A stretch of DNA of 64,000 nucleotides, taken from NCBI GenBank assembly GCA_938743325.2, contig OW568862.1:1031501-1095500 (forward strand), given 5' to 3'. The stretch comes from Pycnococcus provasolii. Its lineage: Eukaryota; Chlorophyta; Pseudoscourfieldiophyceae; Pseudoscourfieldiales; Pycnococcaceae. The notes under the pieces are model-generated. The model did no database searches. It saw nothing but the letters and a program-made list of their open reading frames with translations, and had not been told where the DNA came from. Both the position numbers and the translations under genes were made by a program. Below are positions 36,418 to 40,973 of the stretch, piece by piece. How positions within the stretch are numbered: position 1 is the stretch's first letter; each line of letters starts with the position of its first letter.

Positions 36418-38112
36418 TCAAGCATCCTCCTCCACATCCGCCAAATCACGCAGCAACGGCAAGATCGCACAACTGCACGCGTGAAATGCCACGGGAAGGT
36501 CGCATCCCTCCAGCACGCGCCACTCGCCACTGTCAATCGTATCGAGAACTTCCACCGTGCTCGTGAACGGCGTGCGATCGCTGCCGGTGGCACCACCCAC
36601 CGCGTACAGGCGATCGCCACCGTGAGAACTGCCAGCCACGCCGCAGCACAGCGAACCACCCAGGCGAGGCACATTCAGAGGAGGCAGCATACGCCAGCTA
36701 GAGCCATCCCAAGCCTCCACCGTGCGAAGCGCTTCGCCGTGAGGCCCACGTCCTCCAGCCACCACCACGAGACCTTGCCACGTTACCGAGCCCGCGGCGG
36801 AGCGTGCGTGCTGCATCGAAGGCATCGGCAGGAACGACGCGTCGCCAGGCATCCACGACTCCGCCTCGGCCACAGGACCGTCCGAGTCGCCGCACTCGCC
36901 GCCAGCCACCACGAGGCGGCCGTGCGCATCCATGCCGCTCGCAGCGAAGCAGCGCGCGCGAGACGGCGTCGGCAAGCAGCGCCCGATCCACGTCGACGTG
37001 GCGACGTCGAACGCCTCCATGGGCGCGGGAAGTGGCATCGCATTCTGAGCTTCCATCAGGGCATCTTGGAGAAGGTCCGCGTCGTCGAGATCGTCGACGC
37101 CGTCGGCATCTGCCGTGCGACCACGATCGAGAGGGTCCGTGCCGCCGCCGCCGCGGCGCATTGCCGCGCGACGTGCGGCGTCCGTCGCCGCGCGACGCGC
37201 ACGCTCGAGCGCGTCGACGTACTCACCACCCACGACGTAAATTTGCCTGTTCGAGGCATCGTAGCAACCCGTGGATCCATGCCGAGCCACGGACATGGGT
37301 GGTAAGTCGCTCCAGCTGTGGCACAGCGAGTCGTAGCATGCAACCGTTCGCCACATAGCACCATCCGAGCGGTGCGGGTGGTCGTCGCACCCACCCGCCA
37401 TCATCACGAGCCCGTTCTCGTACGGAATCACCGCGGCGTCGATGCGCGGTTGTTCCATACGAGGTAGGCTGTGCCAGTGCAGCCTCTGGCTGTGATCCAT
37501 CTCCTCGTCGCCGTCGCCGTCGTTGCCACCTTGCAATTTCGGCGACGGCGCGCGCCCATCCTCGAGCTGTGCTGCAAACACCGTGTCGAAGACGCGCCCG
37601 CGGTATCCGCTGAACACGAAGAGCGCGCAGTGCGCCCCCTTCGCCAAGGCCAGCGGCGCACCGACATTCTCGGCAATGGCGACGCAGAGTCCCTCGCATC
37701 CGCTGAGACTCGGGTGAAGTGCGAGCATAGCCGATGCGCCGCTACGCCTGCTTGCGTGCAGCGCGAGCGCCTTCTGACGGTCCCCCATCTTGTGCCTTCG
37801 GAAGACGGCATCCCTGCGAGCGCGCAGAATGACGGGTGGGTTCCCCGTCGCGCCGCTGTCCGCCACCAGCACGCTCACCGCCTCCTGCGCCGGCGCCACC
37901 GCCGGCGACGCTGGCTCGGCGCTTTCGTCGTCGTCGAGGCAGACGTCGAAAGCGTGCGTGATGACCCCTGGCCTTGCTTGGTACTTGCGCGCGGGGCTAT
38001 CTCTCGCCGCCAGCGACGACGACGGCGCGTGCGTGAAGAAGAGGAACACGCGCTCGCCGGGCGTGAGTCGTCCAGACGTGGACGTGGACGAAGACGGAGA
38101 CGTGGTTGGCAT
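36418..38112 (-). CDS. kelch-repeat protein
   Basis: The protein is 564 aa from ATG 38112. The frame stays open upstream through a CACACG microsatellite, which I treat as leader. Residues about 215-550 contain kelch-type beta-propeller repeats: VMMAGGCDD, IYVVGGEYV, LVVAGGECGD, VVVAGGRGP and LYAVGGATG, each with the double glycine before a W or aromatic block. An insertion rich in Asp and Arg splits the second and third repeats. The N-terminal third has no recognised domain. Kelch proteins bind partners such as actin or ligase substrates; the partner here is unknown. The gene ends 177 bp from the rbcS-4 stop. Confidence 0.75.
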   Translation of the reverse strand: MPTTSPSSSTSTSGRLTPGERVFLFFTHAPSSSLAARDSPARKYQARPGVITHAFDVCLDDDESAEPASPAVAPAQEAVSVLVADSGATGNPPVILRARRDAVFRRHKMGDRQKALALHASRRSGASAMLALHPSLSGCEGLCVAIAENVGAPLALAKGAHCALFVFSGYRGRVFDTVFAAQLEDGRAPSPKLQGGNDGDGDEEMDHSQRLHWHSLPRMEQPRIDAAVIPYENGLVMMAGGCDDHPHRSDGAMWRTVACYDSLCHSWSDLPPMSVARHGSTGCYDASNRQIYVVGGEYVDALERARRAATDAARRAAMRRGGGGTDPLDRGRTADADGVDDLDDADLLQDALMEAQNAMPLPAPMEAFDVATSTWIGRCLPTPSRARCFAASGMDAHGRLVVAGGECGDSDGPVAEAESWMPGDASFLPMPSMQHARSAAGSVTWQGLVVVAGGRGPHGEALRTVEAWDGSSWRMLPPLNVPRLGGSLCCGVAGSSHGGDRLYAVGGATGSDRTPFTSTVEVLDTIDSGEWRVLEGCDLPVAFHACSCAILPLLRDLADVEEDA

Positions 38113-38571
38113 ATAAGAGACACACACGCACACTCGTACAGTACTGTACAGACACAACCAACACGACGACCACAAGGTACCGTACCAAGTGCTTATGCAC
38201 ACGCACACGCACACGCACACGCACACGCACGCACACGCACGCACAAGATTGGGCGCTGGAGGTGGACCTCGGGGGGGGGGGAGAAGATTCACTTCCCCTT
38301 CCGGGATTCCTCCGAAGGATCCCCTAATAATAAAAAGGAGGGGGGAACACGTGGTGCACAATATGTAAACGTTTCCGGGTGGATCCCCATTCCCATTCCA
38401 GTGTGGGTGTTGTGCTGTGCTGTGTTGTTGTTGTGTATTTTACTATTTTGGGTAACGCGCTTATATTCCCCCTTTTCTTTTTTTTTCGCGTTTTTCCTGA
38501 ATTTTTTGCTGAATTTTAGTATACGTCATTCTATCATTGCGTGTCACTCCTTGCGCCTGGTCGTAGTGGGA
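38113..38571. other. spacer with CACACG microsatellite
   Basis: This lies between the divergent kelch and TGA-containing genes. It has a cacacg/cacgcacg repeat and T-rich sequence towards the plus-strand gene. No gene is supported. Confidence 0.55.
38197..38244. repeat. CACACG/CACG microsatellite
   Basis: About eight cacacg/cacg units lie in tandem upstream of the kelch gene ATG. Confidence 0.95.
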
Positions 38572-39360
38572 ATGTCCGGCTTCAGCGAGCCGCTGCTGCG
38601 CCCTGACGACGTGCTTGCCGCCGGTGCGGATGCCCTTGCGTCAGACGCGGACTGCGAAGGGGGCGTGTGAAGACCGCCCCCCCGACGACGACGACAAACG
38701 CCCACGGGAACATTGTCGTCGGGGGACAATAATGCGACGGAGAATACGAGTGGAAACGGTTTGTCTGAATCTGAGCACGTCGACGACGGCGAAGACGACG
38801 ACGGGAAAACGGGAATCGTCATGTCCGTGCTGACAATTCTGTTCAGCATACCCGCGCTGCTCGGCTCCTGATGCTGGCCTCTCCTCGTCGCGTCGCTCTT
38901 CAGCATAGCGGCCGACGAGGGGGCGAAGACGCTAGCGCACGGTCTGAGCTTCGGCGTGACGCTCGCCGTGCTCACGAACCTCACGCAGTACACATACAAC
39001 CACGCATCGCTCATGCGAGCGCACAAGGCGACGCATTGGCAGAGGCACGGGCCCACTTATCTTGTCGCGCTCAGCGTACCTCTCGTGTGCGCCGACCTCG
39101 TGCGACACTTGCTGCAGGACGGCGGGCAGTGGCCGTCGCCAGGCAGCGACATGTTTAGACCGAACTGCAAGCACGGCGTACTTGGTTTCAAGTGCCTGAC
39201 GCCTGTCGGGTGGATCTTCTCAGTGTTCTGCACCTACACAGGCTTCATATTACTCATTGTCGGAACGCTGTGGGCAGCCGACTTTGTGCCGAAGCTGCAG
39301 GCGGCTTGGAAAAAGTCGCACCGTCGTTCTCGACAAAGCACGAGCATTTCCCAGGTGTAA
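38572..39360 (+). CDS. candidate membrane selenoprotein (two in-frame TGA codons)
   Basis: One continuous reading frame runs from ATG 38572 to a TAA at 39358-39360 (262 codons) if two TGA codons (33 at 38668-38670; 100 at 38869-38871) are read through. The protein starts MSGFSEPLLRPDD, has an acidic Asp/Glu/Ser linker, then a first hydrophobic segment (MSVLTILFSIPALLGS, TGA, CWPLLVASLFS). Further membrane segments follow (LSFGVTLAVLTNLTQY, YLVALSVPLVCADLV and WIFSVFCTYTGFILLIVGTLW), and the C-terminus is basic. The second TGA sits within the first hydrophobic segment, directly before a Cys, as Sec-Cys. A SECIS-like hairpin follows about 75 bp after the stop. The first TGA might instead fall in a 78-nt GT-AG intron (38665-38742) that keeps the frame. 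I do not recognise a named family with certainty. The alternative is a pseudogene with two stops, but every other codon is intact. Confidence 0.7.
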
Positions 39361-39422: not shown

Positions 39423-39503
39423 AAACTACCAACAGGTGACGGCGCCAACGATAGAAAGAATACGCAACATTATTCATACGTGGTGCCTGATGAGTGGAAG
39501 TTT
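39423..39503 (+). promoter_or_regulatory. SECIS-like element (selenocysteine insertion)
   Basis: Helix I pairs 39423-39427 with 39499-39503 and 39429-39431 with 39495-39497. An internal loop follows, then the core: 5' TGAC (39437-39440) opposite 3' TGAT (39488-39491), giving the tandem sheared G.A pairs of a SECIS. Helix II pairs GGCGCC (39441-39446) with GGTGCC (39482-39487) and ACG (39448-39450) with CGT (39479-39481). A 5' bulge AGAAA (39453-39457) holds the unpaired AA, and a mini-helix, GAATA/TATTC, closes an 8-base loop. That is the form II layout. The pairing was checked by eye, not folded by program. Confidence 0.65.
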
Positions 39504-40238
39504 TTTTGTTTGCTAAAGTTTGTAAGAGATTTACATAGACTGTATCGTGTTCGTACGTGAACACCAAACCACACACGATACAAACACTGTGCCACACACA
39601 CACGGTAATGAACGAGAATGAGCACCACTGGTACCCTGCCAACTGCGGTCAATGGCCCATCGTTGTTGCCCATTGCGATGGAAGCAATCCATCGCCTCGT
39701 CCTCACCACCGTTACAAACTTTTCGCCGGTTTATAGGATACAGTACAGTACTTCCTAGACTGGTTGTGTAGCGAGGTTAAAAAGGATGGTAAAAAGAGGG
39801 AGTCCAATGGGTGACGTCGATGGGTGGCATCGCCCACCAAAATACGGCCCATGGTGTGCCGTATTTTTGATCGCCTTGATTGACGTGATGGCATGCATGG
39901 TATTGCTATTGCAATTGATTGCTACAGTACCTATGGTAGATCACGTGAAATGAAGGTCAAGTAAACTAAAGGATCCTGACACCTGAGGGATGTAAAAAAG
40001 TGTCCTCAAGAAAGATCTTTTCGGGGGCACTTTTCCACGTCGGATGCGAATCGAACTTCACCCTTCCTACCCCGGCAGCCCGGGCGGGTAGTCCCGTACA
40101 TAGCAAGGTTAACAAGCGAAAGCGACTTGTCCACGTCTGGGCCGCCGGCCCTTGCACGCAAAAGTAGTCTACGCACCTACCTTTACCATAGTCCATAGTC
40201 TAAGGATACCATTTCCAACAAACAAAACACCTTAAGAT
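39504..40238. other. spacer, no gene seen
   Basis: It contains a T-rich stretch, then unremarkable sequence. Near 40040-40065 a sequence resembles a tRNA T-loop on the minus strand, but the T-stem does not pair. No gene is supported. Confidence 0.5.
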
Positions 40239-40973
40239 ATGATGATCTCGTCGTGCTCTCGTGTTGTTCGCCGCGCGGTGACGGTGCGTGCGTCAAGCTC
40301 GTCTGACAAGAAACGTGCGTTCGCCGCGTCGTCAGTCCCACTTCCCTTCGCGCCTAACATGGGCCGCCACCCGCCTATGATCGAGCGTGCGGAGGAGGAA
40401 ATGTGGAACCTTTGCGAGTCGCTCAAGAGCCGTGGCGACGTGCAGGGCGAGGAGAGGTGCCACCGCCTGCTCAAGGTGTTTGACCAGCGCGTGTCGGCCG
40501 TCGAGGAGGAGGAGTGCAACCTCGAGCTCAAGTCTTGCAACGCGCTCGACCGCATTACGAACCTCATCACCAGCCTTGGCTTCAGTGCAGATCTCCTTCT
40601 CAAGACGGCAGCTCGCTGGGAGTACGAGTTGAAGAATCGCAGCCGCCTTGGCAAGTCCAACGCTGCGATAGATGAGAGCCGCCTTGCTCGTCAGAGGCAC
40701 ATCACCGCCGCCTTCAAGGCTGCGGATGTGAACCGCGACGGCGTGCTTCAGGTGGCGGAGGCGCGCGCTTTTCTCCAGGCACTTGGTCACGAGTCGGCCG
40801 AAAAGGGTGCGCTGTCGTCGCTTGACTCGTTCACGCTCGAGGAGGTTACTTCCGGCACGGAGGTGACGTTGCAGGACCTCATCTGGCTTGACGAGAACCT
40901 GAACCGCCACGAGGCTGGTGACAGCTTGATGAGGATGTACGGAAGCATTGACAGCATTGACCAAATGCATTGA
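40239..40973 (+). CDS. organelle-targeted EF-hand protein
   Basis: The protein is 244 aa. The first 35 residues are rich in Ser, Arg and Val without acids (MMISSCSRVVRRAVTVRASSSS), a likely plastid or mitochondrial targeting peptide. A helical middle part follows. At about 165-180 there is one canonical EF-hand loop, DVNRDGVLQVAE, with Asp, Asn, Asp and Glu in the calcium-binding positions. A second helix pair after it is less canonical. It is probably a calcium-responsive protein; the family is not recognised. Confidence 0.65.
   Translation: MMISSCSRVVRRAVTVRASSSSDKKRAFAASSVPLPFAPNMGRHPPMIERAEEEMWNLCESLKSRGDVQGEERCHRLLKVFDQRVSAVEEEECNLELKSCNALDRITNLITSLGFSADLLLKTAARWEYELKNRSRLGKSNAAIDESRLARQRHITAAFKAADVNRDGVLQVAEARAFLQALGHESAEKGALSSLDSFTLEEVTSGTEVTLQDLIWLDENLNRHEAGDSLMRMYGSIDSIDQMH

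Follow-up and report, generated by a model that had tools for sequence, protein, structure and literature searches.

A candidate membrane selenoprotein gene with a proposed selenocysteine-cysteine pair in its first hydrophobic segment

Among named proteins, the nearest counterpart of the gene product considered here is MSP, a "membrane selenoprotein" known from green algae and Dictyostelium, with which it has been compared by description only. The 2007 description of MSP concerns Ostreococcus, Dictyostelium, Chlamydomonas and Volvox (PMC2375036). The protein is found almost exclusively with selenocysteine (Sec) in algae (PMC7539508), and it appears in the selenoprotein lists given for O. tauri (PMC8834552), V. 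carteri (PMC6681478) and eukaryotes (PMC7435645). A second system to compare is that of the mercury transporters MerT and MerE, whose first membrane helix carries a cysteine pair at about its midpoint (PMC5715351). The candidate gene lies in a stretch of 64,000 nucleotides, referred to as the window, and its positions are given in window coordinates.

The candidate selenoprotein frame occupies 38572-39360 on the forward strand. Translation gives 262 codons followed by TAA at 39358-39360, and the only internal stops are TGA at codon 33 (38668-38670) and codon 100 (38869-38871), with no TAA or TAG, as a preliminary description of this DNA had stated. Support for the frame is strongest from the ATG of codon 84 (38821) onward; it is weak for codons 1-32 and 61-83 and absent for codons 34-60. 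Residues 82-113 read IVMSVLTILFSIPALLGS-TGA-CWPLLVASLFSIA, where TGA is codon 100, the proposed Sec, and is followed by Cys-Trp-Pro codons. When TAA and TAG alone are counted as stops, the frame is open over 630 codons (37468-39357), and much of this length is antisense to a divergent neighbouring open frame with kelch repeats (36418-38361, reverse strand). The next open frame downstream (40239-40973, forward strand) has no Pfam family at E 0.001. The preliminary description had also taken a long frame interrupted only by TGA as an argument against a pseudogene, an argument that fails: on both strands of this GC-rich window there are 109 stretches of at least 262 codons free of TAA and TAG, and since 99 of them carry TGA (25 of the 109 hold only one or two), the length of such a frame proves little.

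The source genome (32.3 Mb in 46 contigs), which 51 chlorophyll a/b-binding family matches mark as that of a photosynthetic eukaryote, decodes Sec. A tRNA-Sec is present at 69.5 bits, above the cut-off and with anticodon TCA (ARAGORN), and SepSecS is matched with an E value of 3.7e-73. TGA occurs within the matched region of both Rdx genes (SelT- and SelW-like), four of five GPx matches and the single Sep15/SelM match. Internal TGA is also present in two of 55 thioredoxin matches, namely one PDI-like gene and one short match that also contains TAA, and in two of five MsrA matches, one with TGA alone and one with TGA and two TAA. The PDI-like gene and the TGA-only MsrA were taken into the reference set of nine selenoprotein genes (L006, L007, L008, L010, L011, L012, L013, L022 and L045), and the short thioredoxin match and the MsrA with two TAA were left out. 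The names SelT, SelW and PDI were assigned by eye. The products of these genes (GPx, Rdx, Sep15/SelM, MsrA and PDI-like) are proteins that we take to have thioredoxin-like or other soluble folds.

Several further features of the genome were observed in passing. A second tRNA-Sec-like match (L003, G000 C45:4421-4502) lies on a small contig and scores 35.2 bits, below the cut-off. A second MsrA (L047, G000 C31:113913-114335) has its TGA near the start of the domain; the sequence GTAAGT, apparently an intron start, occurs towards the end of the match, and no SECIS was located for this gene. Telomere-like CCCTAA/GGGTTA runs are found a few hundred bases 3' of two GPx genes (L008 and L011). The chlorophyll-binding matches include two groups of six with equal scores and mixed orientation (G000 C31:133072-142609 and C31:360395-366434).

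Every reference gene has a GTGA located 43-100 nt 3' of its stop codon, which was taken as the SECIS core. Since the variable apical part of the nine references was misaligned by MAFFT, a scripted rule was used rather than a covariance model. The rule asks for a G before TGA, an AAA following at 10-15 nt, seven or more paired positions on the 5' side, a 3' GA, and an inner energy of -11.8 kcal/mol or better, the value of the weakest passing reference; these cut-offs were set after a first scan in which the candidate had been seen too. Seven of the nine reference genes pass, the failing ones being L008 and L010. A first, stricter script, which found nothing at L010, L011 and L012, was superseded. 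At the candidate locus, the SECIS-like hairpin that had been noticed downstream of the frame could be located as a GTGA-type element at 39426-39502 on the forward strand, with its GTGA core at 39436-39439, an apical AAA and a 3' GA at 39489-39490. Its GTGA starts 75 nt after the stop codon, its inner helix has an energy of -13.8 kcal/mol, and it passes the rule.

Such elements are rare outside selenoprotein genes. Within 300 nt of the stop, none of the 38 control loci, which represent 35 distinct 3' regions, passes the rule. The controls were genes matched without an internal stop, for which the stop used was the earliest one in frame beyond the match, so that in a control gene with an intron (e.g. 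L035) this stop may be intronic; they comprise 35 loci (33 distinct 3' regions) together with L009, L049 and L050, of which L049 and L050 have their stop in common. When the 300-nt 3' region is shuffled by dinucleotides, 4 of 1000 sequences pass the rule, as do six background sequences in approximately 436 kb of strand (two in the window besides the candidate and four in the loci, overlapping loci being counted twice). A looser rule without the AAA gives 12 matches in the 128 kb of window strand. Taken as a whole, the 83-nt SECIS region is of ordinary stability (z -0.83; 41 of 200 shuffles equal or better). The Rfam SECIS model has no match at the candidate locus, so that the element in the 3' UTR is recognised by our own scripted rule and not by Rfam; genome-wide the model gives two matches, both below its cut-off, and it is of little use here: among the nine reference elements it recovers a single one, that of Sep15/SelM.

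Other hairpins were encountered during these scans. The first scan returned two hairpins with C-TGA further downstream that have better energies than the candidate SECIS. The hairpin at 39984-40043, a strong one with A-rich and T-rich arms between the candidate gene and the next gene, was rejected as a SECIS on account of the C before its TGA, and a perfect stem at about 39838-39870 was rejected by eye. An identical SECIS core of 25 bases is common to two unrelated genes of the reference set, L011 (GPx, near 2051) and L045 (MsrA, near 1970). A search of the genome for this core with up to three mismatches returned G000 C26:197257 and C3:80375 alone, and copying of the SECIS between the two genes is possible.

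Coding potential was scored with a codon usage derived from 14 long window frames presumed to be genes. After codon 100 the frame scores 18.4 bits over 162 codons, the best of the six frames, the next best reaching 8.5. Codons 84-99, too few to judge, give 0.9 bits and no clear coding signal, with a frame on the other strand at 4.0. UGA 100 is accordingly placed inside a coding frame in which the signal is clear after the codon and weak just before it. The hydropathy of the translation, in 19-residue averages, exceeds 1.3 over residues 78-115 (38803-38916), which corresponds to the earlier view of one hydrophobic segment on both sides of codon 100; the stretch spans TGA-Cys-Trp-Pro and is a helix in a low-confidence structure model. 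Were translation to end at TGA 100, the following ATG in this frame (about codon 148) would fall beyond the first hydrophobic segment. Two further hydrophobic regions are seen at residues 159-182 and 202-244, giving three in all by hydropathy, and the single-sequence model, a sketch only with a mean pLDDT of 54, has four long helices; both agree with the multi-pass membrane appearance noted before for the downstream part.

A strong hairpin lies directly 3' of TGA 100 (38873-38936), with an energy of -29.8 kcal/mol in 63 nt; it ranks 8 of 262 frame positions, and 20 of 500 shuffles are as good. It recalls the redefinition element of SelN, as that element is presented in PMC3541580. Strong hairpins after the TGA are found in three of the nine reference genes (L010, L013 and L045, ranks 21, 9 and 7 of 150), and the hairpin of the candidate is weak support because the other six (ranks 68 to 150) lack a strong one.

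Relatives of the protein were sought in several collections. The best Pfam profile is a chance-level DUF4013 (E 0.074), the best NCBIfam profile has an E value of 0.15, and the best PDB sequence has an E value of 0.41. The genome itself, searched with E up to 10, returned the self-match alone. Two queries gave 11 and 2 pattern matches among viral contigs and 48 and 83 among GTDB genome contigs, none of them confirmed as a relative, and the phage collection returned none. No homologue, with Cys or Sec at codon 100 or otherwise, was found among the viruses, prokaryotes and phages searched or elsewhere in the genome. The contig collections hold viruses and prokaryotes and were searched by exact 8-residue matches that recover close relatives only, so absence from them carries little weight; eukaryotes are represented in Pfam and PDB.

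The assignment of codon 100 to selenocysteine is well supported by computation, and we consider it likely that this photosynthetic eukaryote has at the locus a functional gene whose product is a small multi-pass membrane protein and whose UGA 100 specifies Sec by means of a GTGA-type SECIS element in the 3' UTR. By this mechanism the UGA would be decoded as selenocysteine through the SECIS element, the hairpin 3' of codon 100 would perhaps help decoding, and the product would have Sec and Cys side by side midway along its first membrane helix. The actual reading of UGA 100 as Sec, the topology and the function are what we infer from these features, and the function is probably in thiol/selenol redox chemistry or soft-metal binding.

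The TGA at codon 33 may lie in an intron, may lie upstream of the true start, or may be a second Sec. Codons 1-32 look coding (9.7 bits, the next best frame 3.4), the 27 codons that follow the TGA (codons 34-60) do not look coding in frame (-4.1 bits), and codons 61-83 again score as coding at 7.0 bits, yet reach 6.5 bits in a second frame. A possible in-frame GT-AG intron of 78 bases (38665-38742) would remove codon 33, but it is weak, with no clear pyrimidine tract by eye and a GC content of 63% as against 41% in the one intron measured. A start at Met 84 (38821) would leave codon 33 outside the protein. On these grounds UGA 33 is probably not translated. A protein with Sec at both positions has some points in its favour. 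One SECIS element can serve several UGA codons, the candidate frame contains exactly two TGA, and each is followed by a hairpin, the one after codon 33 (38675-38736) ranking 26 of 262 and being equalled by none of 500 shuffles. MSP, moreover, is described with two Sec residues (PMC2375036). However, the negative coding score of codons 34-60 stands against it, codon 33 lies in a low-complexity Arg/Pro-rich stretch without a membrane segment, and its hairpin is made of GAC repeats, and we find this reading unlikely. Read-through of in-frame TGA, as proposed in the preliminary description, is thus retained for codon 100, where Sec machinery, an organism-typical SECIS at the usual distance, a hydrophobic stretch and a coding signal come together, and is not supported for codon 33 in view of the 27 codons that do not look coding, the 78-base GT-AG segment and the later in-frame ATG, a second Sec there having a low probability.

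Removal of codon 100 by splicing would make the gene an ordinary spliced membrane protein. Introns do occur in the genome (L035 and L047, by eye), and an in-frame GT-AG segment at 38823-38903 has a pyrimidine-rich acceptor, CGCTCTTCAG; its donor, GTCCGT, is nevertheless poor, and the segment encodes the heart of a continuous hydrophobic stretch. Splicing would also leave the SECIS element, of a kind present at none of the 38 control loci, unexplained, and we regard it as quite improbable. A pseudogene, a chance frame or a base error at codon 100 is very improbable: long frames with TGA and free of TAA and TAG are common in the window (99 of 109) and the searches for homologues were empty, but the frame after codon 100 scores best of six and is followed by a typical SECIS at a typical distance from its end.

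If codon 100 does encode Sec, selenium is placed beside cysteine within a hydrophobic helix, an arrangement unexplained by the usual soluble redox folds of selenoproteins, and the gene would offer a direct handle on the role of algal membrane selenoproteins. Where UGA is taken for a stop, gene prediction would truncate the candidate gene or miss its start, and proteins of this kind are therefore easily lost. It is doubtful, and suggested here only tentatively, that the protein represents a new family of eukaryotic membrane selenoproteins in which an in-helix Sec-Cys pair serves a soft metal (for example mercury, silver or copper) or electron transfer within the bilayer, which would form a mechanistic class separate from that of the thioredoxin-fold selenoproteins.

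The candidate shares with the other selenoprotein genes of its genome a proposed SECIS of the GTGA, A-rich type within 43-100 nt of the stop, whereas their products presumably have soluble folds and the proposed Sec of the candidate sits in a hydrophobic segment. No title describing a Sec-Cys pair in a membrane helix was among the literature matches listed, and such a pair could still be in print. With MerT and MerE the likeness would lie in two neighbouring chalcogen residues midway along the first hydrophobic segment, Cys-Cys in the Mer proteins as they are outlined in PMC5715351 and the proposed Sec-Cys at residues 100-101, within hydrophobic residues 78-115, in the candidate. The candidate is longer, has more hydrophobic segments and would have Sec in place of the first Cys; this likeness is an analogy only because no profile matched, Pfam and NCBIfam giving no Mer family match with E up to 10. 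With MSP the candidate shares the character of a predicted algal membrane selenoprotein of unknown function, as well as the G before the UGA quartet, which is also carried by the SECIS elements of Ostreococcus (PMC2375036). The two differ in that two Sec residues are reported for MSP and the candidate has one well-supported TGA of the two in its frame. Whether it is MSP or otherwise, the candidate would be a further selenoprotein with an unusual Sec site.
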